Positions 1-14,110 of a stretch of DNA of 47,989 bases are shown piece after piece. The notes under the pieces were generated by a model. The model had not been told where the DNA came from. It saw only the letters and a program-made list of their open reading frames with translations, and searched no databases. The DNA lies in assembly GCA_030540225.1 (NCBI GenBank), contig JAUNWQ010000005.1, positions 1-47,989 of the forward strand. Direction: 5' to 3'. The stretch's first letter is position 1, and each line of letters opens with the position of its first letter. Source of the stretch: Coriobacteriia bacterium. GTDB taxonomy: Bacteria; Actinomycetota; Coriobacteriia; Coriobacteriales; Eggerthellaceae. A program made the translations under genes and the position numbers.

Positions 1-712
1 CCGCCGCCCAGTCTCCTATAACCGAACCATCGCTTATAACCACATAGCGGTCTGCGATGCCGTCAAGCCACCATAGACGATGCTCGGAGATAAGCACGGT
101 CTTTCCCTGACTCTTCAGAAGCGCAATCGTTCGTGCAAGATTTCGCATCGCATGCACATCGAGCGACGCGGTCGGTTCATCAAGCACGAAGATATCAGGA
201 TGCACCGCATAGGCCGATGCCAGGATAACCGACTGCTTCTGCCCGCCGGAAAGTGCCTCGGTACCGCGCCCGAGCAGGCCCTCAATACCGAGTGTTGCCG
301 CTGCCTGCGTCACACGTTCGACCATTTCCTCGCGATCGATTCCGAAGTTCTCGCATCCGAAGGCGATTTCCGAGGTCACGTCGAGATTGACGAACTGACT
401 ACGCGGGTTCTGGAACACCGACCCGACATACGCGGAAAGCTCGCCCATCGTCCATGCGGAAACGGGATTTCCCGCAACAAGCACCTCACCTTGAAGGTCC
501 CCTTCGTACATAAGAGGAATAAGCGCATTAACGAGGCGCGTAAGCGTTGTCTTGCCACATCCTGACTGCCCGGTCACAACAACGCATTGACCGTGAGGGA
601 TCTTCAGCGAAACGTCACGAAGCGATGGACGGGAAGCGCCTTTGTAGCAAAACGTGCATCCATCGAGCTCGACAGCATAGGGCGAAGCCTTCGCCGCGGC
701 GGCATTTTCCAT
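1..712 (-). CDS. ECF transporter energy-coupling ATPase (partial, C-terminus outside window)
   Basis: ABC ATPase that would power an energy-coupling-factor vitamin or metal importer together with the T-component encoded just upstream. Translated from the ATG at 710-712, the protein shows Walker A (GQSGCGKTT), a Q-loop (FQNPRSQF), the signature LSGGQKQ, Walker B with D-loop (IFVLDEPTASLD) and the switch histidine (SEH). About 237 codons are present and the reading frame runs off the left edge of the window. Its start overlaps the stop of the T-component gene by one base (TGATG), a sign of translational coupling. The ATPase class is firm. The substrate cannot be told because the S-component is not in the window. 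Confidence 0.9.
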   Translation of the reverse strand, partial: MENAAAAKASPYAVELDGCTFCYKGASRPSLRDVSLKIPHGQCVVVTGQSGCGKTTLTRLVNALIPLMYEGDLQGEVLVAGNPVSAWTMGELSAYVGSVFQNPRSQFVNLDVTSEIAFGCENFGIDREEMVERVTQAAATLGIEGLLGRGTEALSGGQKQSVILASAYAVHPDIFVLDEPTASLDVHAMRNLARTIALLKSQGKTVLISEHRLWWLDGIADRYVVISDGSVIGDWAA

Positions 713-1488
713 CAGCAGAGTACCCCCGTTCTAAGGCAAACGGCAAACACCAGAAGCACCGTCGCAGCGATGAGGCATACGACGTCAACCACGCACATCC
801 TCAAGCGGTAATACGAGGTGCGGTGCGCACTCGCCCCCACGCCGCGGACGACGACCGCGTTCCCCAGCTCGTCGGCAATCTGACCTAAACGCGCGATCAC
901 GGGCACAAGGAAATGTTCGGCGGTCTTCGCGGGATGGCACACAACCGATTTCGGTGTGAGCGCGATGCCGCGCGTCTTCATCGCGTCGGCGACGGCAGAG
1001 AATTCGCGTCCCATGGTGGGAAGGAAACGAAACGCCACGCACACGCCAACCGACACGTTCGCGGGAACGCGCATCGCCTGCAGCGCGCAAGCGAGCTCGC
1101 CGAGACGCGTGGTTGCAATCATGTTGAAAGCGAACATGAAAGCGGGCAGAACATGGCGGTACATGAGAAGCGATGCCGCAAAAGGCGAAAGCACGGTATT
1201 CCCGCTCGCCACGAACAGCTGCGCCGTCACGGCGAACAGCGCATAGAAGGCAAGCCAGCGCACGATCGCGGAGAAGCGACGGCAATACGCCATCACGACA
1301 ACGGTAAGCGCCAAAACGCCCATCTCGGCGAACAGGCTTTGCATAAGCGCCATCTGCACGTTGATCGCCGCCAGAACCGCAAGCGACGTACGCGGGTCAA
1401 GATGGCGCGGTGCAGCGTTGGCAGACGTCGAAGGCTGCGTCTGCACTACCGCGTTCAAGGGCAAAGGCGCGCCCATCGAAAGAGCCAT
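712..1488 (-). CDS. ECF transporter transmembrane (T) component, EcfT/CbiQ family
   Basis: Membrane coupling subunit of an ECF importer, 258 aa. It has about five hydrophobic segments (starting near residues 35, 60 and 85, and near the C-terminus) and both cytoplasmic coupling motifs that contact the ATPases, visible as ADAMKTRG and ELGNAVVVRGVG (the family's Ala-Arg-Gly motifs). It is the first visible gene of a minus-strand operon and its stop overlaps the ATPase start. An AraC-type regulator is divergent from it across a 94-bp gap, so control by that regulator is likely but inferred. The N-terminal 25 residues are polar and poorly conserved in character, so the true start could lie slightly downstream. 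Confidence 0.85.
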   Translation of the reverse strand: MALSMGAPLPLNAVVQTQPSTSANAAPRHLDPRTSLAVLAAINVQMALMQSLFAEMGVLALTVVVMAYCRRFSAIVRWLAFYALFAVTAQLFVASGNTVLSPFAASLLMYRHVLPAFMFAFNMIATTRLGELACALQAMRVPANVSVGVCVAFRFLPTMGREFSAVADAMKTRGIALTPKSVVCHPAKTAEHFLVPVIARLGQIADELGNAVVVRGVGASAHRTSYYRLRMCVVDVVCLIAATVLLVFAVCLRTGVLC

Positions 1489-1582
1489 GCGATTATCGTC
1501 CTTCTTCCTACTAGTTAGCCATATATAACTATTTACGATAAAATACGACTCAATAAGGCAATGCGGAAGACGGAACGGGAAG
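1489..1582. promoter_or_regulatory. Divergent promoter region, AraC regulator / ECF transporter
   Basis: This 94-bp AT-rich gap separates the divergent ECF and AraC genes. It holds an inverted repeat AGTTA-N8-TAACT at 1513-1530, a plausible operator, and AT-rich blocks that could serve as -10 elements in either direction. The function is inferred from position. Confidence 0.35.
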
Positions 1583-2635
1583 ATGGAAAACTACGCCGAA
1601 AAGAATTCAAGTTCTACCGAAAAATCGAACGGAAGCTACGCCTCAGAACAAGGAAACCCGCTTTACGACATGTTCGTCACACAGCTTTCTCAGTTGCACA
1701 CCGTATGCTCAAAGGAAGCGCTCGCGCGCGGATTCGGCCAGGCCAACCTGGTGCGAAGCATCGGCGAGACATGGTTCGTCGACCCCCGATACGGCAGGGG
1801 CTCTTATTGGTTCTACCTCATGGACGGCGACACCATCGTCGTGTCGATGGACATCACATACGAACGCGCCGTGGAGGCAGTCATAGAGACTATTCCCTAT
1901 CTGGGGTTCGGCCTCTATGAGCATGCGATGCCCATGTATTGCTCGCCTGAGTGCGCTGGATCAAACTGCAAGCTCATAGGGCACGACTGGGATGGCGGCC
2001 CCTACATAAGCTCGTTCGAGCCCGGCAAGCGACTGTCATCGGCGTCGATCACCATAGCCCCCGAAGCGATACACCGCTATGCGGATGCCCTACACTGCGA
2101 TGAGAAGGAACTACGCCGCGCCATCGAGCAGCTCACCACGTCGGACGGCGTGCCCGGCTTGCCCTCGGCACTTCGAGGACTTGACATCACCTACCCCGCC
2201 GCATCGGTAGCCGATGCGTATTACCACGCCAAGGTGATTGAATGCTTCGCGATACTAGCAAGCAGCATTCCCGAAAGGGACATGGCAGCCGACGCTGTGC
2301 GCATAAGCGACAGGGACTGCGTCGAGTGCATCTGCTCCTACATCGACAGCAACCTATCATCCGATCTCAGCACGAAAACACTGTGCGACATCGCCCATGT
2401 AAGCGAGGGGAAGATGATATCGGCGTTCCGCAATGTGCAGGGAGACACCCCACAAAGCTACATCCGCGCACGGCGCCTGGAGCACGGTCGACGCCTTCTC
2501 CTTGATGGAAGCCGCGAAATCGGCGGAATCGCCAAAAGCGCAGGCTATCGCAACCAAGGAGCGTTCACCGACGCATTCAAGCGCGCCTACGGCACAACGC
2601 CGCGCGCCTACCGCAAAAGACTACGAAACGAATAG
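1583..2635 (+). CDS. AraC family transcriptional regulator
   Basis: DNA-binding regulator of 350 aa. The last ~100 residues form the AraC double helix-turn-helix: the first helix region contains SSDLSTKTLCDIAHVSEGKMISAF in pieces and the second IGGIAKSAGYRNQGAFTDAFKRAYG, followed by the typical TPRAYRKR end. The N-terminal ~230 residues form an effector or dimerisation domain that I do not recognise; it is not a clear cupin. The gene is divergent from the ECF transporter operon and is the likely local regulator of it, by position only. The start at 1583 follows a GGGAAG stretch. Confidence 0.85.
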   Translation: MENYAEKNSSSTEKSNGSYASEQGNPLYDMFVTQLSQLHTVCSKEALARGFGQANLVRSIGETWFVDPRYGRGSYWFYLMDGDTIVVSMDITYERAVEAVIETIPYLGFGLYEHAMPMYCSPECAGSNCKLIGHDWDGGPYISSFEPGKRLSSASITIAPEAIHRYADALHCDEKELRRAIEQLTTSDGVPGLPSALRGLDITYPAASVADAYYHAKVIECFAILASSIPERDMAADAVRISDRDCVECICSYIDSNLSSDLSTKTLCDIAHVSEGKMISAFRNVQGDTPQSYIRARRLEHGRRLLLDGSREIGGIAKSAGYRNQGAFTDAFKRAYGTTPRAYRKRLRNE

Positions 2636-2646
2636 GAATAGCATCG

Positions 2647-2859
2647 AGCGATGTCCACTCCCCAAACAAAAGATAAGGAGCGCTCTGAGGATCCGCTAGG
2701 TACTTCTCCTGCAGATCCGAGAATACCTTGGTCTCCAAGACCGTCAGCTCGCATTTATGCTATACGATCATCTTCCTTGCCTCATCAGTAAGTGGAACGA
2801 GCTTTCCAGAGATTATGCTCTTCTTCAGTGATTTAGCCGGCGGTCTGCTGGTCCACCAT
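2647..2859 (-). pseudogene. Degenerate reading frame with internal stop
   Basis: On the minus strand a single frame continues from about 2859 to 2647 with a TAG at 2760-2762. Upstream of the stop it reads SLKKSIISGKLVPLTDEARK and downstream CELTVLETKVFSDLQEKYL. The second part resembles, from memory, the start of small TIGR04076-type proteins, but this is weak. There is no start codon with a ribosome binding site. It is best read as gene debris in a decaying region between the AraC gene and the toxin-antitoxin remnants. Confidence 0.25.
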
Positions 2860-2982
2860 TCGCTGCCACGCCCTTATCGCCACGACAGTTAAAACCGACA
2901 ACCCAACTGGAATTGACCGAAATAGCACAACAGCAAATCCGCGTGGCAGAGTGGGAATAGCGGGAATACGTGCAACATACGC

Positions 2983-3198
2983 ATGGGAAGACAGACGAGG
3001 GACGACGCGGCAAAGCTCTTCTCGGAGCTCGGCACAAGCACGACCCAGGCGATCAACATGTTCCTCGAGCAGGCCGTGAGGGAGCAGAGGATCCCCTTCG
3101 AGGTCACCGCAAGGCCGGCAATCGAGTACGGCAGCGAGAGCATGGAAAATAAGCACGCCTGCCCATCGCGTCGTCCGCCGCAGCGCCCTTGCGGCTAG
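2983..3198 (+). pseudogene. RelB/DinJ-family antitoxin remnant
   Basis: The frame carries the RelB/DinJ ribbon-helix-helix core: DDAAKLFSELGTSTTQAINM followed by FLEQAVREQRIPFEV. The usual N-terminal strand survives only as NIRM upstream, without an in-frame start codon or ribosome binding site, and the C-terminus departs from the family after about residue 50. No RelE/YafQ-type toxin follows. The homology is clear in character; whether any product is made is doubtful. Confidence 0.6.
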
Positions 3199-3242
3199 GC
3201 CAGCCGCCAGATCGGGGTTGCATGCTTTTGATAGGTCAAAAA

Positions 3243-3262
3243 TATAGTAAATGCGCTATACT
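3243..3262 (+). promoter_or_regulatory. Probable promoter/operator of the AbiEi antitoxin gene
   Basis: An inverted repeat TATAG-N8-CTATA (3243-3260) overlaps a -10-like TATACT (3257-3262). The likely start codon, ATG at 3269, sits 6 bases after this -10 and has no Shine-Dalgarno sequence, so the transcript may be leaderless. AbiEi proteins are known to repress their own promoter at inverted repeats; the assignment here is inferred. Confidence 0.4.
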
Positions 3263-3268
3263 TTCGGC

Positions 3269-3793
3269 ATGGCAAAAATCGACGACATATACGAGGCGGT
3301 AGACGACTTCGGCCTGATCACCTCTGCCGAGGCGGCCGAGCTCGGCATGTCCAGGGCGGAGATGGTCCAGCAAGAAAAGCTGGGGAAGCTCGTGCGCGTC
3401 GCGCGCGGCGTGTACCGCATGCCCATCTGGCCGTCGCAGCCGCAAGCGCCCTATGCCATCGCAGTGAAGGCGGCGGGCGAAGGGGCCTTCCTCTGCGGAG
3501 AGTCTGTTGTGGCGCTGCTGGGGCTGGCGCCAACGGACCCTACCAAAATGCGCCTCGCGTCGCCGAGGCGCTGCCGGCGCAATCTGGGCCCCGGGGTCAC
3601 CTTGGAGCGAATGGGCGGGACGGCCCCCGTCTACCTGGAGGGCATCGCCTGCCAGCCCTTGCCGGCCGCCATCGCGGCAGCCTCGAAGACCATGGGGGCC
3701 GACCGGGCCATCGAGGCCGCGAGCGAAGCGCTCGCGCGCGGCTACATTACCAAAGAGGAGGAAGAGCGGATCAAGGAGGAGATAACCCGATGA
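3269..3793 (+). CDS. AbiEi-type (type IV) antitoxin / transcriptional repressor
   Basis: Antitoxin of the AbiE class, 174 aa from ATG 3269 (a start at 3251 would add six residues). The N-terminal winged helix reads MAKIDDIYEAVDDFGLITSA and continues into a short basic helix and the typical KLVRVARGVYRMP turn. The remainder carries the AbiEi C-terminal body (CGESVVALLGL, PRRCRRNLGPGV). In intact AbiE systems this protein represses the operon and counteracts an AbiEii nucleotidyltransferase toxin. Here the stop overlaps the start of the toxin frame by four bases (ATGA), the normal arrangement, but the toxin is cut short, so the antitoxin is an orphan. It might still act as a repressor. Confidence 0.75.
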   Translation: MAKIDDIYEAVDDFGLITSAEAAELGMSRAEMVQQEKLGKLVRVARGVYRMPIWPSQPQAPYAIAVKAAGEGAFLCGESVVALLGLAPTDPTKMRLASPRRCRRNLGPGVTLERMGGTAPVYLEGIACQPLPAAIAAASKTMGADRAIEAASEALARGYITKEEEERIKEEITR

Positions 3794-3870
3794 AGAGGCC
3801 AAACAGCATGCGCCATCTCGACGACGCGATACGCAGGCTCTGCGGGGGCGGACGGGCGGCGCCGGCCTGA
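3790..3870 (+). pseudogene. Truncated AbiEii toxin (26-codon remnant)
   Basis: Starting in ATGA overlap with the antitoxin gene, the frame begins MKRPNSMRHLDDAIRRLCGG, like the start of AbiEii nucleotidyltransferase toxins, then stops at 3868-3870. Complete AbiEii proteins are about 10 times longer. The stop lies just before a strong hairpin (3873-3919) and the left 84-bp repeat of the radical SAM cassette, so insertion or recombination there probably removed the rest of the gene. Confidence 0.65.
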
Positions 3871-3872
3871 AT

Positions 3873-3919
3873 GGTTGGTCCCTTCTTTGTATAGATGACC
3901 ATACAGAGAAGGGACAACC
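3873..3919. repeat. Strong hairpin at the left edge of the radical SAM cassette
   Basis: The arms 3873-3892 and 3901-3919 pair almost perfectly (one bulged G and one wobble) around an 8-base loop, AGATGACC. The right arm runs into the 84-bp direct repeat. There is no T-run, so it is less like a terminator than like the end of a repeat or mobile element. Confidence 0.7.
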
Positions 3920-3987
3920 AAGAAGACGGGTTGCTGATGCGGATTCCCGCGCGCTCGCGATCACCCGACGGGGACTGTATTTTCATC
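3904..3987 (+). repeat. 84-bp imperfect direct repeat, left copy
   Basis: This copy begins CAGAGAAGGGACAACCAAG and ends with ACCCGACGGGGACTGTATTT and TCATC. It matches 6427-6510 with 10 mismatches in 84 and no gaps. The pair brackets the radical SAM pair and its TetR neighbour. The two copies have diverged, so they are not a fresh target duplication; they may be REP-like elements or recombination ends. Confidence 0.85.
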
Positions 3988-4060
3988 TTTTATACTGCAT
4001 TGCAGCATGTGAACTATCTCAGACGCTGATCGCTCGCATCGAATCATCGTCGATTTCCGT

Positions 4061-4969
4061 TTAACGATTTCTTTTCCCGGTATTTTCCGACCCCCGGATT
4101 TCCTCGTGATAGAAGTAATCCACAATCGCCGGATGCCCCTGCGGGACCCTGCCATAAGGCATTTCGTTATCCACAAAGGGGCAATCGTGCTTCTTTGCCA
4201 CTTCCCCGGCTTTCACTTCAAGCGCTTCAAAGTATATGCGGTCACGTTTGTTATAGATTTCATCGTAAAGCGGTAGAAGATCGGGATATTTCCCAGCGAT
4301 GTAATCCAGGATCGTCTTCTTGAAACCGCCCCGGAGGTTGAGGTTTTCGAGCCAAAACAAATCGCACTGATCCTTTACTCGCTCAAAGATCGCCTCAAAA
4401 TCCGTGATGCCGGGAAAAACCGGGGACACGAAGCAGACCGTACGGATTCCCGCATCATATACCTGCTTCATAGCGGTAATCCGGCGCTCAATGCTCGGAG
4501 CGGAGTCCATATCGTTCTTGAAGTTTTCATCCAGCGTGTTGATCGACCATGAAACGGTCACTCGTCCAAGCTTCTTCAAAAGGTCGATATCCCGTACCAC
4601 AAGGTCAGACTTTGTACAGATCAGGATATCTGCGTCGCCGCCGACCAACTGCTCCAGTAGTTTCCTGGTATTCCCGAATCGCTCCTCCTGCGGATTGTAG
4701 CCATCCGTCACAGAACCGATGACCACCCGCTGCCCGGCGTATTTCTTCGGGTTTTTGATTTGCGGCCAATGCTTCACATCAAGGAAGGTGCCCCACTCCT
4801 CCTTGTGCCCGGTAAAGCGCTTCATAAAGGAGGCGTAGCAATACTTGCAGGCATGTGTACAGCCTACATAGGGGTTGACCGAGTAACCGCCTACCGGCAG
4901 GCTGGACTTGGTCATGATGTTCTTTGTCTCCACCTCGTTAATGAGGATTCCGTCGATTACCTCTGCCAC
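4061..4969 (-). CDS. Radical SAM mobile pair protein B (SPL-like radical SAM)
   Basis: Radical SAM protein of 302 aa in the spore-photoproduct-lyase-like group. The [4Fe-4S]/SAM motif is CTHACKYC (Cys37, Cys41, Cys44), followed by a TIM-barrel body with GSVTDGYNPQEERF and VSWSINTLDENF. It starts at GTG 4967-4969 and overlaps the end of the upstream radical SAM gene by 13 bases, so the two are translated together. The two-gene arrangement and sequence match what NCBI names the 'radical SAM mobile pair' A/B, whose reaction is, as far as I know, not established. The A+T content and codon choice (many AAG/AAA, ATC/ATT, GAT) differ from the flanking high-GC genes, suggesting acquisition. Confidence 0.85.
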   Translation of the reverse strand: MAEVIDGILINEVETKNIMTKSSLPVGGYSVNPYVGCTHACKYCYASFMKRFTGHKEEWGTFLDVKHWPQIKNPKKYAGQRVVIGSVTDGYNPQEERFGNTRKLLEQLVGGDADILICTKSDLVVRDIDLLKKLGRVTVSWSINTLDENFKNDMDSAPSIERRITAMKQVYDAGIRTVCFVSPVFPGITDFEAIFERVKDQCDLFWLENLNLRGGFKKTILDYIAGKYPDLLPLYDEIYNKRDRIYFEALEVKAGEVAKKHDCPFVDNEMPYGRVPQGHPAIVDYFYHEEIRGSENTGKRNR

Positions 4970-5646
4970 GATCTCTGCATCTCCAGCACTTTATCGAACT
5001 CTTCCGGCAATTCCTGAATCATATTTTCATTCCCTACGATGGAGACGAGGTCTTCCTTCATAAACACCGGGATGCCAAGCGTATGCGCCTGGTCGGTCAG
5101 AGACCATGCCCACTCCGGTTCCGTATGAACCTTCCTGCTCTGCGCCCCGGTCATGGTACCGACGACGATCCAGTTGATCCCGGAAAGGTCGACCGTGCCG
5201 GGGTCGTCGAATAACGGCTCAAAGGTAACGAAGTAGTGCTTTGCTCTGACGTTTTTCCGAAGGGCGCCAATGCGCCACAGCTCTGCTTCCCTCGTCACCG
5301 TAACGCCAAACCATGCGTTTTCCAGGTCGGTATCAAAATTCAGCAGATCGGGTCTCTTGGTCAGGAACAGGAACTGATGCTGTGAATTCTCACGGATCTT
5401 TGCAAATACCTCGTCTCTCCATTCCGGATTCCATCCGGAGAGGTCGCTCATGCCGGTAAGAAGAAAGTTCTGCGGACGCTTCTTTTCCATCATCTTGAGC
5501 TTGCTCGGGAAGAACTCAGGATCAGCGAAGCTATCGATGACATGCCAGCGTTTCACATTGTTGCGGGCATAGCAATATGTGCACCCCACCGTGCAGCCGA
5601 TGACGATATTCATGTTCTGAATCTGATCTTTGATGCAGATACTCAT
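4957..5646 (-). CDS. Radical SAM mobile pair protein A
   Basis: Radical SAM protein of 229 aa, the first gene of the pair. The cluster motif lies close to the N-terminus: CTVGCTYC (Cys18, Cys22, Cys25), followed by YARNNVKRWHV. Later motifs include NFLLTGMSDLSGW and FLFLTKRPDLL, also seen in phage Gp37/Gp68-type radical SAM proteins (DUF5131), the family I think it is closest to. The start codon ATG 5646 follows GGGAACC. The adjacent partner overlaps it. Two different radical SAM enzymes encoded this tightly probably act on the same or consecutive substrates; the substrate is unknown. No precursor peptide gene was found beside them. Confidence 0.85.
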   Translation of the reverse strand: MSICIKDQIQNMNIVIGCTVGCTYCYARNNVKRWHVIDSFADPEFFPSKLKMMEKKRPQNFLLTGMSDLSGWNPEWRDEVFAKIRENSQHQFLFLTKRPDLLNFDTDLENAWFGVTVTREAELWRIGALRKNVRAKHYFVTFEPLFDDPGTVDLSGINWIVVGTMTGAQSRKVHTEPEWAWSLTDQAHTLGIPVFMKEDLVSIVGNENMIQELPEEFDKVLEMQRSWQR

Positions 5647-5852
5647 GGTTCCCGCCCATCCTCAAGGTGGTTGGTGGGCTCGACGATAAATTGCTCGTAT
5701 GCAGTCACCCCATGCACTCCTTTGGCTATAATCAACATGTGTCTACAAACAGTATCCTTGTTGATTTCCTCAGGGACAATGGACAAATGCGTGCACCTGT
5801 CGATAAACGAACAGCTATTGAACGTTGTCGAGCAACTTAGATTGGAGAGACG
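5647..5852. promoter_or_regulatory. Divergent intergenic region, radical SAM pair / TetR regulator
   Basis: This 206-bp gap holds the promoters of both divergent units. A -10-like TATAAT occurs in TTTGGCTATAATCAAC near 5727-5732. I saw no convincing long palindrome. Related mobile pairs are usually described with a MarR-type regulator; here the neighbour is TetR-like. Confidence 0.3.
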
Positions 5853-6413
5853 ATGGGAGAAGTGAAGATTGACCGCCGACGGCGCTACACCCTCTCGGTC
5901 ATACGGGAGGCGTTCTTTGCGCTGCTGACCGAGGTCGGCTTCGCAAAGATGACGGTGGCGGACATCTGCCGTCGCGCCGATATCAACCGGGGCACGTTCT
6001 ATCTGCACTATGAGGACAAGTTCGCGCTGCTCGATGCGCTTATCGACGAGGCCCTGGCGGCGGCGCCCCCGCTCGAGGGAGCGGAGGCGGGGGCCCTCTG
6101 CCAGCGCCCGCCGGCAGACGACGATTATCGCCTGCTATATTCGGATAGCGACGCGTATGCCCGCGTGGCACAGCGCGTCATCGAGCGCGGAGCCGAGCAG
6201 ATGGTCCCTCGGATCATGCAGAGAACAGGGCTTTCACGCGAGGACGCCCATCTGCTCTTCGTCCACAACGTCCAGGGAAATCTCGCGGTCAACCGCCTGC
6301 TCGGTTGGAGGCGGGGTCCCGAGTTCGCCCACGCCCAGGAGCTGCTCAGCGCCTATTCCGAAGGGGGCCTGCAGGCGGTATCGACTCGTCATGATTCCTT
6401 TAGTTCATCTTAA
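5853..6413 (+). CDS. TetR/AcrR family transcriptional regulator
   Basis: Repressor-type regulator of 186 aa. The N-terminal ~50 residues form the TetR helix-turn-helix: RRRRYTLSVIREAFFALL, then FAKMTVADICRRADINRGTF and YLHYEDKFALLDAL. The C-terminal ligand domain is unspecific in sequence. The gene is divergent from the radical SAM pair and lies inside the repeat-bracketed segment, so it may control the pair. Its base composition is high-GC like the host's, unlike the pair, which suggests a different history. Start: ATG 5853 after a GGAGAG stretch. Confidence 0.85.
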   Translation: MGEVKIDRRRRYTLSVIREAFFALLTEVGFAKMTVADICRRADINRGTFYLHYEDKFALLDALIDEALAAAPPLEGAEAGALCQRPPADDDYRLLYSDSDAYARVAQRVIERGAEQMVPRIMQRTGLSREDAHLLFVHNVQGNLAVNRLLGWRRGPEFAHAQELLSAYSEGGLQAVSTRHDSFSSS

Positions 6414-6426
6414 CCGTAAACCCATG

Positions 6427-6510
6427 CAGAGAAGGGACAACCAAGGAGACAGGTTGCTGACGCGGATATCCGCACGCCCGCGACTACCCGACGGGGACTG
6501 TGTTTTCATC
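6427..6510 (+). repeat. 84-bp imperfect direct repeat, right copy
   Basis: Same orientation as the copy at 3904-3987 and 74 of 84 bases identical. It starts 14 bases after the TetR stop codon. The hairpin arm found left of the first copy is absent here. A short frame (ATG 6424 to 6576) runs through it but has no ribosome binding site and is not considered a gene. Confidence 0.85.
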
Positions 6511-6609
6511 CCTGATTGCCGATTCAGCAGCATCCGCGAAAGCGCTTTGGCATCGCTGCTGAAGTGGCGCGGTTAGACTAGCTCTCTGGCGCATCTTTGC
6601 GCGTGTCGC

Positions 6610-6658
6610 CTTCTTGGTTTCGAAACTTTATAATAATTCGGGTTTCGAAACCAAGAAG
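6610..6658. promoter_or_regulatory. 17-bp perfect inverted repeat around a -10-like sequence
   Basis: Arms of 17 bases (core GGTTTCGAAACC type: CTTGGTTTCGAAAC / GTTTCGAAACCAAG) flank a 15-base centre containing TATAAT. It is followed by AAGGAG (6655-6660), a good ribosome binding sequence, yet no start codon or reading frame follows before the converging znuB gene. It looks like an autoregulated promoter/operator whose gene has been lost. The region 6414-6728 otherwise contains only the right 84-bp repeat. Confidence 0.6.
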
Positions 6659-6728
6659 GAGCGGATAACGGCTTAGGTAGACCGCAATACGTACATGGAG
6701 CAGCTTTGAGCGCGCAAAGGCACCCGAC

Positions 6729-7559
6729 CTACCGAAAGCAAGCAAGGCGTTTAGCCAGCGCCTTCACCGCAATCAAGGCAAGCAGGATCGCAACCTCGGT
6801 CAGCACGATCGCGCCTCCCGGCTTAAATCCCAGCGAGTACGACATCGCCAAGCCGATCGCCGCGCTTGTCACGCCCACCGAGCACGACACCGCCATGGTC
6901 TGCCTCCAGCTCCGAGCCACCACCAGGGCGCACGCCACGGGCACCGTCATCATGGAGCTTACGATGAGGGTTCCCACCGTGCGAGACGCGATGGAAACCG
7001 TAGCCGCCGTCATCAAGATGAACAAAAGGTTCACTGCCGTCACGCGGACGCCGGCAAGCCTTGCAGCGCGCTCGTCTATGGTCACCCAAAACAGCTCTCG
7101 ACGAAAAGCCGCGCACAGCGCAACCACTGCCGCGCCAAGGACCACGACGGACACAAGCTCGTCGTTGCTGACCGTCACGATGCTACCGAACAGAAAGCTT
7201 GAGAACGTGGAGCTGTTCGGCGTGAACCCGGAGAGCACACCGGCAAGCCCCACGCCCGCAGCCATCACCACGGCGATGGCGAGGTCGGCATGGCCCTCGA
7301 AGCGGCGGCGAATCCCCTCGATGGCAAGAGCCGATGTCATGCAGGCGACCGTTGCGCCTGCAACAGGGTTGATTCCGCCGATAAGGCCTGCCGCCACGCC
7401 GGCAAGCGAAGCGTGCGAAAGGGCGTCGCCCACCATCGAAAGGCGCTTGAGAACCACCACCACGCCCACCAATGGCACGGCTACGCCCAAAACGATGCCC
7501 GCGATGAACGCGCGCGTCATGAACCCATGGGAAAACATATCCGCAAGATACGCCAGCAT
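6729..7559 (-). CDS. znuB: Zinc ABC transporter permease
   Basis: Integral membrane permease of the manganese/zinc ABC-3 family, 276 aa with about eight hydrophobic segments. Typical family stretches are visible: VAVPLVGVVVVLKRLSMVGD, ALSHASLAGVAAGL and GTLIVSSMMTVPVACALVV. It is the last gene of the zur-znu operon and its start directly abuts the stop of the ATPase gene. With ZnuA and ZnuC it would import Zn2+ under zinc limitation. The preference for zinc rather than manganese rests on the Fur-type regulator and the His-rich loop of the binding protein in the same operon. Confidence 0.9.
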   Translation of the reverse strand: MLAYLADMFSHGFMTRAFIAGIVLGVAVPLVGVVVVLKRLSMVGDALSHASLAGVAAGLIGGINPVAGATVACMTSALAIEGIRRRFEGHADLAIAVVMAAGVGLAGVLSGFTPNSSTFSSFLFGSIVTVSNDELVSVVVLGAAVVALCAAFRRELFWVTIDERAARLAGVRVTAVNLLFILMTAATVSIASRTVGTLIVSSMMTVPVACALVVARSWRQTMAVSCSVGVTSAAIGLAMSYSLGFKPGGAIVLTEVAILLALIAVKALAKRLACFR

Positions 7560-8336
7560 CTACGCCTCCTTATCCCGCGCAACCGGTTCCCGGCATGCAG
7601 CGTTTTCCGCAAGCATGCTCGACTCGAGACGGAGCACGCGCGCGGACAGGCCGGAAAGGCGCCGTACATCGTGCGTCACGATGACCACCGATTTCGCCTT
7701 CGACTTCGCGATACCCTGCAAAAGCCCGGCGAACGCCTCGACAGCATCGGCGTCCATACCGCTAGTCGGCTCGTCGAGGATGAGCAAATCGGGATGGTTG
7801 ACCAAGGCGCGTGCCAGAAGCACGCGCTGCACCTGCCCACCGGAAAGCTCGCCGATGGGGCGCTTGGAGTAGCCCTGCATGCCCACGCTGGCGAGGGCGG
7901 TCGACACGGCGTCGTCATCTTCCGAACGGGACGGAAACCTTATGCGCAGCGCGTAGCGGTTCGCGGCGACGACCTCCTTGACGGTAGCGGGAAAGCGCTC
8001 ATAGGTTCCCGCTATGCACTGGGGCACGTAGCCAACACGCCGCCAATCGCAAAACGACGATGCCGGCACGCCGAAGAGCCTGACAGCGCCCGCAGTCGGG
8101 ATGAGCTCTCCGAGCATGACGCCGAGCAGCGTTGACTTCCCAGCGCCGTTTTCGCCCACAATCATGCACGTCTCGCCTTCTCCGATGCGCAAGCTCACAT
8201 CCCTCAGAACAGGGGACGATCCGTAGGAAAACGCCACCCGGTCCAGCTCCACCGCCGCATCCGCAGCACCGCCTGCATCTATCGCATCGGCCGAGCCCAA
8301 CCGGCCGGCCTGTTTGCTTGCAAGATTTCCGCCCAT
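7560..8336 (-). CDS. znuC: Zinc ABC transporter ATP-binding protein
   Basis: ATPase of the zinc importer, 258 aa. Walker A is GENGAGKST, the signature LSGGQVQR, Walker B LLILDEPTSGMD and the switch histidine VTHD. The first ~28 residues (rich in Ala, Gly and Asp) precede the normal ABC start at AVELDRVAFSYG, so translation might begin later. It lies between znuA (13-bp gap) and znuB (no gap). Confidence 0.9.
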   Translation of the reverse strand: MGGNLASKQAGRLGSADAIDAGGAADAAVELDRVAFSYGSSPVLRDVSLRIGEGETCMIVGENGAGKSTLLGVMLGELIPTAGAVRLFGVPASSFCDWRRVGYVPQCIAGTYERFPATVKEVVAANRYALRIRFPSRSEDDDAVSTALASVGMQGYSKRPIGELSGGQVQRVLLARALVNHPDLLILDEPTSGMDADAVEAFAGLLQGIAKSKAKSVVIVTHDVRRLSGLSARVLRLESSMLAENAACREPVARDKEA

Positions 8337-8349
8337 GTTCGCACTCGCT

Positions 8350-9339
8350 CTATTGCTGGTTCAATGCGCTGACAAGCTCCTTGAGGTTGTCGCGCATAAC
8401 GGAGAAGTAGTCTTCTCCCGCATCAAGCTCATCTTGCTCGAGGCCCTCGACGGGGTTGAGCACCTCGCACGAAGCCCCCGTCTCGCTGGCAATCTGCTCG
8501 GCGACCTTAGGGCTCACCAGGTCCTCCGAGAAAATGACCTTCACGTTGTGGTCGCGCACGAACTGCACGATCTCGGACATGGCCTTCGCATCGGGCTCGC
8601 CTTCCGCGTCCATGCCCGTGATGGGCTCCTGCGTCAGGCCGTACGCGTCGCACAGATAGCCGAACGCCTCATGGGACACGACGATGGTCTTGCCGGAAGT
8701 CTGGGAGAGCTGCTCGGAAAACTCCTTGTCGAGGGTGTCGAATTCACCAGCCCACTTCGTGTAGTTCGCCTCATAATCGGAAGCGTTATCGGGGTCGGCC
8801 TTCACGAGCGCGTCCTTGATGTTCTCGGCCTCCTTCTTCGCGTTCTCAGGCGCAAGCCACACGTGCGGGTCGTGCTCGCCGGCGTGCTCGCCCTCCTCGG
8901 CCCCGTCGGCATCGTGGTCGTGGTCGGCGAGGCGCAGATCGAGGCCGTCGGATGCGCAAACGGCAATACCGGCGAGGTTCGAGGAGGCCAGGGTATCGTC
9001 AACCCAGCCCTCCATGTCCGCCCCGTTGTAAACGAAGACGTCGGCGTCCTCGATGGCCTTGACGTCGCTCGGCGACGGCTCCCATTCATGCGGCTCCGTT
9101 CCCGCCGGGCAAAGGTTCGCGACCTCAACGTGATCTCCTCCGATCTTCTGGGCAAAGTCGGCCATCGGGTAGAAGCTCGCCACCACCTGGACCTTTTGAG
9201 GTTCGCTTGAGGACCCCTCATCACCAGCAGCTGCGCTCGAATTGCCCGAAGCGCTGGAGCACGCGGAAAGCCCCGCAATGCACAGCACGGCCACTGCGGC
9301 TGCAAAAGCCGCATAAATCAATTTATTCAGTTTTACCAT
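8350..9339 (-). CDS. znuA: Zinc-binding lipoprotein of the ABC transporter
   Basis: Extracytoplasmic metal-binding protein, 329 aa. It has a lipoprotein signal (hydrophobic residues 7-24, lipobox LSAC), then the cluster A-I fold with metal-ligand histidines in PHEWEPSP, DPHVW and SHEAFGY. Between the first two lies an acidic His-rich loop (DHDHDADGAEEGEHAGEHD) typical of zinc rather than manganese binders. Start choice: ATG 9339 has AGGGG upstream and begins the signal peptide; an ATG 30 bases earlier adds a non-signal decapeptide. A small hairpin with a T-run precedes the gene. Confidence 0.9.
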   Translation of the reverse strand: MVKLNKLIYAAFAAAVAVLCIAGLSACSSASGNSSAAAGDEGSSSEPQKVQVVASFYPMADFAQKIGGDHVEVANLCPAGTEPHEWEPSPSDVKAIEDADVFVYNGADMEGWVDDTLASSNLAGIAVCASDGLDLRLADHDHDADGAEEGEHAGEHDPHVWLAPENAKKEAENIKDALVKADPDNASDYEANYTKWAGEFDTLDKEFSEQLSQTSGKTIVVSHEAFGYLCDAYGLTQEPITGMDAEGEPDAKAMSEIVQFVRDHNVKVIFSEDLVSPKVAEQIASETGASCEVLNPVEGLEQDELDAGEDYFSVMRDNLKELVSALNQQ

Positions 9340-9356
9340 CGGTATATCCCCTGTTG

Positions 9357-9375
9357 AAAACGCCCGCAAGCGGGC
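9357..9375 (-). terminator. Hairpin with T-run upstream of znuA (attenuator-like)
   Basis: On the minus strand GCCCGC-TT-GCGGGC is followed by GTTTTC. It lies between the small membrane protein gene and znuA, so it could reduce read-through or protect the znuA transcript end. The stem is short (6 bp). Confidence 0.4.
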
Positions 9376-9407
9376 AAGGTGTACGGCTGCTCAAAAGAAG
9401 GCGTCTC

Positions 9408-9692
9408 CTAGCAGTCAAGCCTCACCTTCAGCCCGACGAGCGTCTGCTCGGCAACGCAGCTGCGCCGGGCGATGCAGAGCAGCACCAACAGGACAACCGA
9501 CGCAAGCGGGGCAATGCGCGCGGGGATATCGGCTCCGGAATGGGCAATAGAGCCGATGGCTGCAAGCACAAAGCAGATTTCGCACCCGTCCCCCGGGCAA
9601 TCGTGCTGCGCTTCGACGACGACGAACAAAGAAGGAGCGACGAGGGCGAACGCAAGCGCCAATGCCGCGATGCGCATGCGAAGGCTAGGCAT
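9408..9692 (-). CDS. Small Cys-rich membrane protein of the zinc operon
   Basis: Protein of 94 aa from ATG 9692, overlapping the end of the zur gene by 8 bases. It has two hydrophobic segments (about residues 6-24 and 55-75) and between them a short loop HDCPGDGCEIC, a possible metal site facing outside. A basic tail follows. I do not know a characterised homologue, but small membrane proteins with an H-C-x(4)-C-x2-C loop are familiar to me next to zinc uptake genes in anaerobic Gram-positives. Co-transcription with zur and znuA suggests a role in zinc handling. A longer frame starting at 9782 would overlap zur heavily and is unlikely. Confidence 0.7.
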   Translation of the reverse strand: MPSLRMRIAALALAFALVAPSLFVVVEAQHDCPGDGCEICFVLAAIGSIAHSGADIPARIAPLASVVLLVLLCIARRSCVAEQTLVGLKVRLDC

Positions 9693-10122
9693 CCGCACGC
9701 CCCTTCCCGTCATTCGCGCGACGTGCGCACGATTCGCAGACCCCGAACAAGACGGTGCTGGACATATCGACCCGAAAGCCATGATCGGTCAGCATATGGG
9801 TGCAAAGCTCATCGACTTTCTCGCAATCGAGATGGATGAGCCTGCCGCATACCGTACACTTCGCATGATAGCAACGGGTTCGCATGCACGCGCTGCGGTC
9901 GACGATCTCGAAGCAAGCGCTCTTCTCGCCGACAGGCCGGGATTTCACCGCAAGGCCCTCGTCGACGAGCTTCTCAAGCTGGCGATAGACCGTAGCAGGC
10001 GAAACCCGATGCCCGTTTTCGGCAAGCTCGGCGTACACGGCCGAGGCGGTCATATGGCCGCCCGCCCCGAGAAGGCAATCAATTACCGCCCTTCTCTGTT
10101 CCGTGTTGTACTGCTCGCGCAT
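9685..10122 (-). CDS. zur: Fur family regulator, probable zinc uptake regulator
   Basis: Metal-dependent repressor of 145 aa. The N-terminal winged helix (TASAVYAELAENGHRVSPAT, VYRQLEKLVDEG) is followed by the dimerisation domain with structural zinc cysteines CTVC and CESC and histidines (CYHAKC, LIHLDCE). It is the first gene of the znu operon, which argues for Zur rather than Fur or PerR. A well-formed promoter and TGAGAAT half-sites precede it, consistent with zinc-dependent autorepression of the operon. Confidence 0.85.
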   Translation of the reverse strand: MREQYNTEQRRAVIDCLLGAGGHMTASAVYAELAENGHRVSPATVYRQLEKLVDEGLAVKSRPVGEKSACFEIVDRSACMRTRCYHAKCTVCGRLIHLDCEKVDELCTHMLTDHGFRVDMSSTVLFGVCESCARRANDGKGRADA

Positions 10123-10387: not shown

Positions 10388-10494
10388 ATATGCACAGAAA
10401 ACCTTCGTACAATGTTTAGGGGAATCGAAACGGCGGGCCTCCTTTACGGGTAAAATCGTGCTGATCGATCGCTTGGATACCAAAAGGACATCAC

Positions 10495-11283
10495 ATGGAA
10501 ATCCCTAGCACCCTGTGCAGCAACCTGTACGACTTCGCATTCTGCCCCGAGCCCTGCTACGACCGCCTGGTCGACCTGGCCGATCCCGAGGATTGGGGCC
10601 TCAACAACCGCATTCTCAAAAACTACCTGTCGTTCTCGTTTAGCCGCGCGGTATTCCTAACCGAGCGAGACGCGGAGCAAGAAGCACCGTCCAACCTGCC
10701 ATTAGTCTTCGACGACGGCCGCTGCCTGTTCAACACAGGCCTGTACACGCGCCGCTACGAGAACATCTACGGCCTGTTCGAGCCCAACACCAAGCCCGAT
10801 GCGCGCCAGCACTGGTTTTTGAAAGGCTTCTTCAAAGAGAGCGACCCCATGCTGGTCGCCTTCGAGTACCTTCCCTGCCGTGTGCACTTTGCCGAGGACC
10901 CCTCCGAACTCGTCTTCGACTACCGCCTGCCCATCCGATCCAACATCGACCACATCTTAGGCGATGAGGAAAATCTGACGCGCATTCCCGCCAGTCTCAT
11001 GGGGGAAGACAACTCGCTGCTGCTTCGCCGCGCCTTCGAGGGCGCCGTCGCCGAAGCAGCCCGCCGCGCCGCTGCCAACTATACGCTCGCCGTGCCGCAG
11101 TTCTATGGCGGCCGGATCCAGTTGCTGCTGCCGCTGTGTCTGACCAGCGACAAGCCCGAACTGGCACTGACCATCCAGCGCGAAGACGGGTTCTACGCCG
11201 CACGCACCTGTCTCACGATTGAGATGGCCTACAACAACGCGCGTCTTATCTGCCGTCCCGAGACCTCCTGGATTAAGCGGTAG
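10495..11283 (+). CDS. DUF3825 domain protein
   Basis: Soluble protein of 262 aa that I assign to the DUF3825 family from its overall pattern: a start like YDFAFCPEPCYDRLVDLA, the middle FNTGLYTRRYENIYGLFEPN, and the end CLTIEMAYNNARLICRPETS. In other bacteria this domain is found alone or fused to RNA- or nucleic-acid-related modules; its biochemical role is unknown to me. There is no signal or membrane segment. The start follows AAAAGGACATCAC. It stands alone between the zinc operon and trmO. Confidence 0.7.
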   Translation: MEIPSTLCSNLYDFAFCPEPCYDRLVDLADPEDWGLNNRILKNYLSFSFSRAVFLTERDAEQEAPSNLPLVFDDGRCLFNTGLYTRRYENIYGLFEPNTKPDARQHWFLKGFFKESDPMLVAFEYLPCRVHFAEDPSELVFDYRLPIRSNIDHILGDEENLTRIPASLMGEDNSLLLRRAFEGAVAEAARRAAANYTLAVPQFYGGRIQLLLPLCLTSDKPELALTIQREDGFYAARTCLTIEMAYNNARLICRPETSWIKR

Positions 11284-11405
11284 CGACTGGCTCATCTGCG
11301 AGGTTGCGCTTCATTTGGCACGCGGGGCAAGCCTTGCGCCAGCAGATTGGCTGATGAGCACGTAGAACCTGCCATGTCAGACGACCACCCTAGCTTAGGA
11401 GCAAC

Positions 11406-12131
11406 ATGAAGCCGATAGCGCACATCCGCACCGACCTACCGCAGAAGTTCGGAATCCCCCGCAACAGCTTTCTCGCGCCCCACCTGCGAGGATGCATCGT
11501 ATTCGAACCCGAATGCGCCCTCGAATCGGCAGTTGCGGGCATCGAGAGCTTCTCTCATCTCTGGCTGATCTGGCAATTCGAGAACGGCGTGCCGGGCGGA
11601 ACCGCCGACGACATCGCCGCCGATTATGCAGCGTCTAGCAGGAGCGGGGCAAACGCCAGATGGTCGCCGACCGTGCGACCCCCGCGACTGGGCGGCACCG
11701 AGCGGATGGGCGTTTTCGCATCGCGCAGCCCCTTTCGCCCGAACCCGCTGGGCTTAAGCTGCGTGAAGCTCGATCGGGTGGAACACACCGACGCCGGGCC
11801 CGTGCTTCACGTCCTCGGGGCAGATTTGCGAGACGGCACGCCGATTCTCGACATCAAGCCCTATATCCCCTTCGCCGACTGCCATCCCGACGCCCGCGGC
11901 GGATGGATCGAAGACGCGCCGTGGCACGAGCTTACGGTCGACTTCCCTGACCAGCTTCGCGAATCAATCGAGGAAGACAAGCTCGCCGGCCTCGTCGAGG
12001 TTCTGAGGCAAGACCCGCGGCGCGCGGGAAGCAAGCACGATCCCTCGCGCGTGTACCATCTCGCCTATTCCTCGCTCGACGTCGCCTTCACCGTAGACGG
12101 GGATGCCCTGCACGTCGTCTGCGTGAGCTAG
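11406..12131 (+). CDS. trmO: tRNA (t6A37) N6-methyltransferase TrmO
   Basis: SAM-dependent enzyme that methylates N6-threonylcarbamoyladenosine at position 37 of certain tRNAs. The 241-aa protein begins with the TsaA/YaeB beta-barrel: PIAHIRTDLPQKFGIPRN, then SHLWLIWQF, then the family signature GVFASRSPFRPNPLGLS and ILDIKPYIPFAD. The C-terminal part fits TrmO proteins with the usual extension. A terminator follows at 12178-12205. Confidence 0.9.
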   Translation: MKPIAHIRTDLPQKFGIPRNSFLAPHLRGCIVFEPECALESAVAGIESFSHLWLIWQFENGVPGGTADDIAADYAASSRSGANARWSPTVRPPRLGGTERMGVFASRSPFRPNPLGLSCVKLDRVEHTDAGPVLHVLGADLRDGTPILDIKPYIPFADCHPDARGGWIEDAPWHELTVDFPDQLRESIEEDKLAGLVEVLRQDPRRAGSKHDPSRVYHLAYSSLDVAFTVDGDALHVVCVS

Positions 12132-12177
12132 AGCTACCTCCCGCACGTCTTCCCAGCGGAGAGCACGTCGCACAACT

Positions 12178-12205
12178 CCCCGAATGACCACAAACTCGGG
12201 GTTTT
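12178..12205 (+). terminator. Rho-independent terminator after trmO
   Basis: Stem CCCCGA (12178-12183) pairs with TCGGGG (12196-12201), followed by TTTT. It lies 46 bases after the trmO stop and between converging genes. Confidence 0.6.
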
Positions 12206-12290
12206 GAACGTGCGTCTCGCCCTGGCCAAACCAAGGGCGGCGATTGCGCGTCCTGCGCAGTTGAGGCAGTCGCGGTATGCTCCCCGCGCA

Positions 12291-13439
12291 TCACGCGGTC
12301 GCAACAGCCTCCCCAACGGGGAGCTCCACGCGCATGACGGTGCCGTCCTCGGAGCTCGCCTCGACCTCCACCGTGCCGCCATGAAGCGCGGCGATTTCCC
12401 ATACAAGCGAAAGTCCCAGCCCAACGCCGCCGTATTCCCTGCTGCGGGACGAATCGACGCGGAAGAACGGCTGGAAGATGCTCTCCTTGAACTGCTCAGG
12501 GATCCCTGGGCCGCCATCGGCGATCCGCAGAACAACGCGCCCGCCCTCCTCACAGGCGGAGACGCGGACCGCCGTGTCGGGTCGGCTGTACCGAATTGCG
12601 TTCTCGACCAGGTTGAACACGAGCCGATACATCAACGTGTCGCTGCCGATCAGCCAGGCATCCCCGCTACGCTCAAGGGCGATGCCGCGCGCCTCGGCGA
12701 GGGGCGCAAGGTCGGCGAGAACCTCCTCGACCATCGGAGCTAACTCAATCCGGTCGTTGCAGGGCACGCTGCGAAGCTCGCTCATCTCGAGCAGCGTCTT
12801 CGTCATCTGCGACATCTTCTCGGTCTGCTCCTGAAGAAGCTCGAGGAAGGCAGCCTCTTCAGGCCCCATGTCGGGATGCTCGGCGGAGAACAGCTCGACC
12901 TGCGCCTGCATGAGCGCAAGCGGCGTCCGCAGCTCGTGCGCGGCGTTCCCCGTGAACTGCCGCTGTGCGCTAAAGCCCTCGTCAAGGCGGTCGATCATGC
13001 TGTTGAACGACTTGCTGAACTGCTGGAACTCGGGCAGCACGTCCTCGCTGATCTTCATGTCCGCCAAATTGCTCGGCTGCACGTTTTCAACCTGCGACGC
13101 AAAAGCCCGCAGCGGCCTGAGCGCGCGGCCGCTGACGAAGTACGCCAGCACGCCGCCGAGCAGCGTCACCGCAACCGTGATAAGCCAATTGGTCGCACTG
13201 AAGGATTCCTGTGCGTTGCTCACAACGATCGTAAGCTCTTCGTCGAGCTCGCGGTTGTCGGGGTCGAACGACGCGGCGGCACCCCCGTCGATGTCGGCGC
13301 ACGCCGATATGCCACTGCCGATCGAGTCCATGTAACGCATTCCCGAATACCCGATGAGGCAGTTCATCAGCACGCACGTCACACACACGAGAAGAGCCGT
13401 CATCAGCGTGATGCGCCACTGCAGCGAGAGCCTTTTCAT
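12291..13439 (-). CDS. Sensor histidine kinase of a two-component system
   Basis: Membrane-bound kinase of 382 aa. Two transmembrane segments (about residues 9-31 and 85-103) enclose a short ~55-residue extracytoplasmic loop. A HAMP linker follows, then the H-box NAAHELRTPLAL with His168, the N-box NLVENAIRYS, and the G-boxes DGGPGIPEQ and GVGLGLSLV. The start ATG 13439 overlaps the response regulator stop by four bases (ATGA). A longer upstream frame is only read-through of the regulator gene. The system is divergent from the CXXC peptide/polyferredoxin/redoxin genes and probably controls them, possibly in response to redox or thiol stress (inference). Confidence 0.9.
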   Translation of the reverse strand: MKRLSLQWRITLMTALLVCVTCVLMNCLIGYSGMRYMDSIGSGISACADIDGGAAASFDPDNRELDEELTIVVSNAQESFSATNWLITVAVTLLGGVLAYFVSGRALRPLRAFASQVENVQPSNLADMKISEDVLPEFQQFSKSFNSMIDRLDEGFSAQRQFTGNAAHELRTPLALMQAQVELFSAEHPDMGPEEAAFLELLQEQTEKMSQMTKTLLEMSELRSVPCNDRIELAPMVEEVLADLAPLAEARGIALERSGDAWLIGSDTLMYRLVFNLVENAIRYSRPDTAVRVSACEEGGRVVLRIADGGPGIPEQFKESIFQPFFRVDSSRSREYGGVGLGLSLVWEIAALHGGTVEVEASSEDGTVMRVELPVGEAVATA

Positions 13440-14110
13440 GAGACATCCTCCATCACGTAGCCCTCCCCGATGCGATTGCGTATAGGGTCGTGCCCCAAAG
13501 CAGCGCGCAGCTTCTTCCTCAAGGCGGAGATGTGCACCCTGATCGAGTTGCTGAAGTTGTTCACGCTGCTGTCCCACACGTGTTCGAGCAGCTCCTCCTG
13601 GCTGACCGGCCGCCCCTGATTGAGCATCATATACTCGAGTATCCCGATTTCCTTTCTCGTGAGGGACAAAGCCTCCTCGCCTACAGCCGCCCGGCGCGCC
13701 TTTGTGTCAAAAGTGAGATTTCCGCAGGTCAACAGCACATCATTTTGCGTAAAACGCCTGAGCGTGAGGCTGCGTATCCTCGCCGCAAGCTCTTCGAGGT
13801 GAAACGGCTTCGTGAGGTAATCGTTCGCGCCCGCGTCAAGGCCCGCCACCTTCTCGGCAACCTCGCTGCGCGCCGACAAGATGAGCACCTTGGTCTCGCA
13901 GTCAACTTCTCTCAGTGTCCTAAGCACCGTCATGCCATCCGCGCCGGGAAGGTTCAGGTCGAGCACGACAAGATCGAAGTTCTCGACGGCAAGCAGGTCA
14001 AGCGCTTCCCGCCCATCGTGGCAGCAGTCGACGCTGTACGCAAGGCGCCTCAAGCTGCGCGCGATCGCATCGCTCAGCGACCGTTCGTCTTCAACAACCA
14101 AAATGCGCAT
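13436..14110 (-). CDS. OmpR-family response regulator
   Basis: Response regulator of 224 aa. The receiver domain has acidic residues VVEDE, phosphoacceptor Asp51 in VVLDLNLPGADG and Lys101 in YLTKPF. The C-terminal winged helix ends with SNSIRVHISALRKKLRA and IRNRIGEGYVME. The ATG at 14110 is preceded by GAGGAGG at ideal spacing. It is co-transcribed with the downstream kinase. A -10-like TATAAA lies upstream, about 14150 on the minus strand. Confidence 0.9.
   Translation of the reverse strand: MRILVVEDERSLSDAIARSLRRLAYSVDCCHDGREALDLLAVENFDLVVLDLNLPGADGMTVLRTLREVDCETKVLILSARSEVAEKVAGLDAGANDYLTKPFHLEELAARIRSLTLRRFTQNDVLLTCGNLTFDTKARRAAVGEEALSLTRKEIGILEYMMLNQGRPVSQEELLEHVWDSSVNNFSNSIRVHISALRKKLRAALGHDPIRNRIGEGYVMEDVS

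Follow-up and report, generated by a model that had tools for sequence, protein, structure and literature searches.

Organisation of the locus

We analysed a 47,989-nucleotide stretch of Coriobacteriia bacterium DNA (contig JAUNWQ010000005.1; hereafter the window) in which two overlapping radical S-adenosylmethionine (SAM) genes and a divergent TetR gene are bracketed by two copies of a direct repeat (Table 1). An earlier reading of this region, made from the letters alone and here called the sequence-only reading, had taken the repeats for the ends of a cassette carrying a radical SAM mobile pair. Its identification of the genes was correct: both radical SAM products scored above the family cutoffs for mobile pair proteins A and B (TIGR04471 and TIGR04470), their reading frames overlap by 13 bp, and PF00440 recognised the divergent regulator. 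The CX3CX2C motif was invariant across the alignments of both pair proteins. The repeats, first described as 84 bp, are also real and lie in the same direction around the pair and the TetR gene; they measure 89 nt each (3899–3987 and 6422–6510) and are 88% identical without gaps. As the earlier reading reported, no transposase or integrase was seen among the open reading frames between them.

The G+C content was 0.514 for pair B and 0.519 for pair A, with third-position values (GC3) of 0.65 and 0.687, as against 0.634 and 0.813 for the pooled neighbouring genes. The TetR gene gave 0.635 and 0.759. The low G+C content of the pair and the host-like G+C content of the TetR gene, both perceived in the sequence-only reading, were thus borne out by measurement.

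Table 1. Positions of the features in and around the repeat-bracketed region
Feature	Position	Strand	Evidence and remarks
AbiEi antitoxin gene, intact, toxin-less	3251..3793	+	PADLOC AbiEi, 307 bits
AbiEii toxin gene, 5′ fragment of ~20 codons	3790..3870	+	Intact 273-aa gene in G001
Former expression platform of left riboswitch	3870..3915	-	Shine-Dalgarno region AAGAAGGGAC instead of AAGGAGGAAC; ATT in place of the yjdF ATG of relatives; near-perfect hairpin
Left azaaromatic (yjdF) riboswitch aptamer, decayed	3893..3996	-	RF01764, 32.7 bits; 8/78 departures
Radical SAM mobile pair protein B, CX3CX2C	4061..4969	-	TIGR04470, 592.9 bits (cutoff 410); PF04055
Radical SAM mobile pair protein A (DUF5131), CX3CX2C	4957..5646	-	TIGR04471, 406.5 bits (cutoff 355); PF07505
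21-codon scar reading frame, Sir2a N-terminus (VTAYEQFIVE) in-frame with MarR C-terminus (NHLEDGREP*)	5643..5708	-	Compared with L108 and L078
Candidate TetR operator TGTCTACAAACA, imperfect dyad	5740..5751	.	TetR/pair divergent region; TGTCTATAAACA in Collinsella; deduced from sequence
TetR-family regulator, partner of Sir2-like operon in Collinsella	5853..6413	+	PF00440 (TetR_N), 43 bits; 87–90% amino acid identity to two Collinsella TetR copies
Right azaaromatic riboswitch aptamer, core intact, without expression platform or yjdF	6417..6519	-	RF01764, 54.8 bits; 2/78 departures
Perfect 18-bp inverted repeat (CTTGGTTTCGAAAC...)	6609..6659	.	Recurs ahead of the yjdF riboswitch in three relatives and ahead of an ATPase gene start in G001
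ATPase gene start remnant (VDRNTYMEQL*), ten codons	6677..6709	+	Compared with G001:C38 MMTWVDRNAYMEQLWALEG, opening of the intact ATPase gene

The bracketing repeats match the yjdF riboswitch aptamer

An Rfam scan identified both repeats as azaaromatic (yjdF) riboswitch aptamers (RF01764) on the minus strand. The right copy exceeds the gathering threshold of 45 bits and so belongs to the family by its covariance model. The left copy falls below it (E = 0.0018 in a 3-kb search), and its 88% identity to the right copy leads us to count it as a decayed paralogue. When the whole genome was searched with the repeat, these two copies were the only strong matches, the next having E = 0.09. Among 138 genomes of the family the repeat was present in 57, where the pair is nearly always absent, and RF01764 aptamers were found in 56, with yjdF (DUF2992) directly behind in most of the loci examined. 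The sequence-only reading had held that occurrence of the repeat many times in the genome without the pair would count against it; no such multiplication was found, but the repeat does occur without the pair in relatives.

Neither window copy has yjdF behind it as in the 5′ untranslated regions that define the family, and no yjdF gene was found anywhere in the source genome, the assembly of which is 94.5% complete. Conservation was scored at the 78 positions where 21 relatives agree to 95% or more, each relative being scored leave-one-out. The left copy departed at 8 of these positions and the right copy at 2, and most relatives departed at 0 to 2. Behind the aptamer the relatives read AAAGGAGGAACC...ATG and the left copy reads AAAGAAGGGACC...ATT, while the right copy is followed by the end of the TetR gene. 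The published yjdF switch controls translation by freeing the ribosome-binding site (PMC9142559), and neither copy can therefore act on yjdF here. Both would be aptamers by descent, not working switches for yjdF. Thus the window repeats match RF01764 in sequence and structure, and relatives carry yjdF directly behind, but the window differs from other RF01764 loci in having two same-strand copies, both without yjdF, the left one degenerate at conserved core positions.

The sequence-only reading had also described a 19-bp hairpin in front of the left repeat, and this structure is genuine. Its arms (3878–3892 and 3901–3915) are 93% complementary, and the minus-strand RNA folded with –24.8 kcal/mol (z = –6.4); the corresponding region of G001, a genome of the same genus, gave z = –1.0, with no strong fold beyond chance. 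The hairpin is the altered ribosome-site region of the left riboswitch. The conserved 3′ side of the aptamer supplies the left arm, to which the right arm has become a nearly exact complement through sequence changes. It looks like the result of quasi-palindrome correction in an unused, functionless copy.

At yjdF riboswitch loci of Collinsella and Eggerthellaceae (L093 9666–13601, L130, L012 4471–7511 and L160), yjdF is followed by three SAM-dependent methyltransferase genes. This block shows approximately 95% protein identity across families and may itself be mobile.

Comparison with G001 showed where the window departs from a close relative. One G001 contig is collinear with the window over 2981–3850 (95% identity), 10,443–21,926 (92–93%) and most of 30,925–47,989. 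The syntenic site lacks window positions 3851 to approximately 10,443, and the right repeat sits in the middle of this stretch. The missing stretch therefore extends well past the right repeat, and the repeats are not the borders of gained DNA. In its place G001 has the remainder of an intact AbiEii toxin gene and other genes, without a riboswitch; the window has the left aptamer, the pair, TetR, the right aptamer, a palindrome, an ATPase gene stub, zinc-transport genes and a Fur-type regulator gene. No clean empty site at the repeats, such as the sequence-only reading had proposed to look for in strains lacking the cassette, was found, and its view of the repeats as cassette ends has to be given up, since they are RF01764 aptamers and the difference from G001 runs beyond them. 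The stretch from AbiE to the zinc operon is instead a series of junctions, with three genes, TetR, pair A and pair B, left complete.

Origin of the radical SAM pair

Relatives of protein B that are 85–94% identical over the full length were found in Treponema, Lachnospiraceae, Oscillospiraceae, Erysipelotrichaceae, Collinsella and others, and 372 candidate stretches encoded relatives. A tree of 73 pair sequences placed the window as sister to three Collinsella copies (support 100), and then to Treponema together with E. infirmum (95). Pair A exceeded its cutoff in two of the 138 family genomes (G000 and one other), and pair B in 11 of 398 genomes of the class. The window pair thus shows the patchy cross-phylum distribution with high identity that is expected of the mobile pair. 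Horizontal acquisition, as proposed in the sequence-only reading, is supported by the foreign composition, by protein B identities of up to 94% in Treponema and Clostridia, and by the tree; nor is the pair a resident of the same locus in all relatives with normal composition, being absent there in relatives and foreign in composition here. The ratio of non-synonymous to synonymous substitution rates was 0.04–0.19 for the pair genes and 0.13–0.15 for TetR compared with Collinsella. These low values indicate that all three genes are maintained by purifying selection.

No match to the pair was obtained in 50,697 phage records, and the plasmid records with the pair were two L. eligens megaplasmid records. 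A large serine recombinase gene lies 0.5–1.2 kb upstream of pair A in L119, L134, L146, L152 and L082, and pair copies near such a gene probably ride at the edge of integrative elements. A limited literature search found no paper naming the pair or its families.

In 62 related loci the pair is preceded by a MarR gene, which belongs to TIGR04472 (288 bits). In the window only C-terminal codons of MarR lie directly upstream of pair A. The window enzymes therefore share with the radical SAM mobile pair system (TIGR04471 A, TIGR04470 B and TIGR04472 MarR) their order, overlap, scores above cutoff and cross-phylum identity, but MarR is cut to approximately its last eight codons, and its position is taken by the divergent TetR of a Sir2-like operon.

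A deletion scar between TetR and the pair

The same TetR gene is divergent to the pair in Collinsella, with 87% DNA identity over window positions 5725–6398, and a second Collinsella copy of TetR is divergent to an operon of three Sir2-like genes. The label Sir2 should be read provisionally, as it comes from weak matches to NAD-dependent deacylases. Five Clostridial loci have the pair behind Sir2-like genes and MarR, and in four of them a divergent TetR is in view, the full order being TetR, Sir2a, Sir2b, MarR, A, B.

The reading frame between TetR and pair A consists of the codons VTAYEQFIVEPTN followed by HLEDGREP*. Its first part resembles the start of Sir2a (TFYEQIVNE) and its second part the end of MarR (NLEDWQES*), and its stop codon overlaps the pair A start as the MarR stop does in relatives. 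This scar, together with the Collinsella arrangement, argues against the suggestion that TetR may be unrelated to the cassette, and the TetR-pair arrangement in Collinsella rules out TetR as a mere host neighbour. In Collinsella approximately codon 97 of Sir2a is joined directly to pair A without a MarR tail, whereas in the window approximately codon 13 is joined to the MarR tail. A single deletion common to both is excluded by these differing Sir2a junctions. The two deletions were therefore independent, and both placed the pair behind the divergent promoter of TetR. When compared with their Clostridial counterparts, the window TetR is 33% and the Collinsella Sir2a 65% identical, while the pair is approximately 90% identical, indicating that the pair joined such operons at least twice. 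Having lost its MarR, the pair can thus pass to a promoter of the TetR/Sir2 type by two or more independent routes, and this narrows the range of possible inducers.

Sir2-like genes, mostly with a divergent TetR, recur beside the pair in L088, L107, L108, L110, L093, L130 and L143, in lineages that differ to this degree in TetR and Sir2a, which suggests independent associations; in L143 the Sir2a-like gene is divergent to the regulator-pair block. The repeated association of the pair with TetR and Sir2-like genes hints at a functional link but does not prove one. In Collinsella L130 (6692–6984) the pair-adjacent TetR gene is without its middle part, and the pair may be derepressed there.

The MarR-A-B unit in Clostridia

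The ends of the unit were mapped from 49 pair loci in 1137 comparisons. Similarity ended 480–560 bp before pair A, just ahead of the MarR promoter, in 967 of the comparisons; at the other end it stopped within –10 to +30 bp of the pair B stop codon in 1100. In Clostridia the MarR-A-B unit is approximately 2.1 kb long, and both ends carry the 10-bp sequence TTCMAGTTTG in the same direction. The core consensus reads TTCMAGTTTG nnGAAYTGA, with a CAGTT-N5-AACTG dyad. Outside the unit, 593 kb contained 21 copies of TTCMAGTTTG on the same strand and one on the opposite strand (null mean 4.6, both strands), and core sites lie mostly right after stop codons.

One and the same left flank could be followed by different right flanks exactly at the core, and vice versa. 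Sixty-one sites comprised 38 left and 40 right clusters in 58 distinct joins; for the unit itself, 14 different right flanks followed the 3′ end and 15 different left flanks preceded the 5′ end. Blautia luti and Blautia massiliensis have the flank before the unit in common, and B. luti has an additional 1.1-kb piece after the unit, exactly between two cores. Core arrays are short, with two to five sites, and no recombinase gene was consistently next to core sites. Same-direction TTCMAGTTTG arrays separate unrelated small genes in gut Clostridia at L098, L104, L111, L118, L149 and L087. Viral contigs gave 12 single matches to the extended core and no arrays.

In these Clostridial relatives unrelated genes are swapped precisely at a short same-direction site. 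This resembles the behaviour of integron gene cassettes, as do the sharp ends and the orientation of the sites. The 10-bp core, however, has no attC boxes (RYYYAAC...GTTRRRY), and IntI (TIGR02249) exceeded its cutoff in one of 12 host genomes, that of T. putidum. In this sole true-integron host the attC repeats differ from the core and the pair lies approximately 70 kb away from the integron, outside the attC array. A classical integron was therefore rejected. The window copy of the pair has neither core.

Possible reaction of the pair

Pair B matched the radical SAM families of Rv2578c and PA0069 below their cutoffs. A structure model of pair B (predicted local distance difference test score, pLDDT, 68) matched radical SAM enzymes, and the highest query TM-score in the PDB list, 0.48, was to spore photoproduct lyase; the model of pair A (pLDDT 62) was poor and not interpretable. 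Sequence searches of the PDB with pair A and pair B gave no credible match. Pair A also matched the candidate-defence models PDC-M41B and PDC-M30B. By these family matches and the TM-score pair B is similar to spore photoproduct lyase and to Rv2578c/PA0069, but it lies far under the equivalog cutoffs and belongs to a two-gene unit. One tentative guess, and a weak one, is that the two proteins form a radical SAM system akin to spore photoproduct lyase that acts on damaged or modified nucleic acid.

History of the region and competing explanations

We consider it probable that several insertions and deletions have worn the region down to its present form, with TetR, pair A and pair B surviving under selection. 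The repeats, RF01764 RNAs from which yjdF has been lost, would descend from two same-direction yjdF loci. The pair would derive from a MarR-A-B mobile unit that landed behind the start of a Sir2-like gene, and a deletion of perhaps 2.4 kb would then have taken out the greater part of Sir2a, Sir2b if present, and MarR almost completely, so that the 21-codon scar remained. Pair A and pair B are most likely transcribed from the TetR-divergent promoter, with TetR predicted to repress at the 5740–5751 dyad and a small molecule to release it. The tree shows that the unit entered the lineage from outside, its nearest kin being in Collinsella, then Treponema and Clostridia. The joins seen in Clostridia suggest that the unit moves there as a cassette by recombination at TTCMAGTTTG, with a putative recombinase acting in trans. 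In the window the 5′ core would have gone with MarR and the 3′ core would have been replaced by the left-aptamer junction, so that this copy, having lost both, would be fixed in place.

Several points weigh against this account. The TetR operator and the control of the pair by TetR are deduced purely from the layout of the genes, and no match to a sigma-70-type promoter was found between 3780 and 6740. The core was seen in Clostridia and not in the window, so cassette use in the window lineage is deduced from the descent of the unit. That yjdF is missing was judged from an assembly 94.5% complete. This draft consists of 160 contigs, and some junctions may be assembly errors, although aptamers that differ by 12% would be poor points for misassembly. 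Both structure models are of low to middling confidence.

A different origin for the two aptamers would be a circle carrying TetR, the pair and an aptamer, integrated by a single crossover at one resident yjdF riboswitch, with the aptamer as homologous landing site. This would leave the promoter and a hybrid aptamer on one side, a hybrid aptamer and yjdF on the other, and the cassette between direct repeats. The two copies do complement each other as halves of the intact G001 locus, in that the right one keeps the upstream palindrome and the left one the ribosome-site side, and the Collinsella pair lies 0.8–4 kb upstream of a same-direction yjdF riboswitch. However, the copies are 88% identical and both unlike those of G001 and Collinsella, the syntenic site in G001 is free of riboswitches, and a further genome, G095, has two same-direction yjdF loci 18.9 kb apart, so that duplication and deletion would suffice without a circle; we regard the crossover as unlikely. 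It is far less probable that the right riboswitch still works and governs the pair, through a transcript running from the palindrome side through the aptamer and antisense to TetR into A and B, with azaaromatics controlling both. Its aptamer core is intact and on the same strand as the pair, and the upstream palindrome is kept in relatives with yjdF loci, but approximately 770 nt including the whole antisense TetR gene separate it from pair A. The expression platform is moreover gone in a class whose effect is on translation from the following start codon (PMC9142559), and the Collinsella riboswitch is downstream of the pair, beside an intact yjdF. We give almost no credence to a composite transposon-like cassette with the repeats as its ends or as target duplications. 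Their common direction, exact bracketing and the foreign composition in between would fit, but the repeat belongs to an already known, conserved RNA (RF01764) that precedes yjdF across the family, a divergence of 12% is far too high for a target duplication, and the segment missing from G001 continues well past the right repeat. Removal of this false lead shows that repeats bracketing foreign genes can be ordinary riboswitch copies, and an Rfam check should come early in such scans.

For the Clostridial unit, TTCMAGTTTG might be a general intergenic repeat subject to ordinary recombination, with no cassette recombinase. Arrays of only two to five sites and the lack of a consistently adjacent recombinase are in keeping with this, but we find it doubtful in view of the strand bias of 21 to 1 outside the unit, the position of sites mostly right after stop codons, the joining of unrelated sequences exactly at the core in many combinations, and a length of 10 bp that is short for homologous recombination. 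We see about an even chance that the pair is cargo of an undescribed cassette system of gut Clostridia and their neighbours, in which promoter-bearing genes lie between same-direction cores and are moved by a putative site-specific recombinase distinct from attC/IntI, its attachment more than once to TetR/Sir2-like operons suggesting a shared function. A gene cassette with a defined 10-bp core would be a concrete candidate for the cross-phylum spread of this transposase-less pair. The riboswitch and the pair are known families; what is new is the coupling of a pair without MarR to TetR, together with the scar, the bracketing by two aptamers that lack yjdF, and the cassette core in relatives. 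A limited literature search found no description of the core, of the TetR-coupled form or of such aptamers.

Neighbouring features

The zinc ATP-binding cassette transporter genes and the Fur-type regulator gene at 6729–10122 are absent from the G001 syntenic site and fall within the same 6.6-kb difference as the pair. Window positions 1–2652 are 91% identical to contig C147 of the source genome and 90–91% identical to G001:C18, which is not the G001 contig that matches the remainder; the break in similarity at 2652 could reflect duplication, rearrangement or a mixed bin. A palindrome consisting of two copies of GGTTTCGAAACC was found upstream of different genes in the family, at window 6609–6659, G001:C38:870–928 and G102:C22:16844–16893, and looks like a shared operator.

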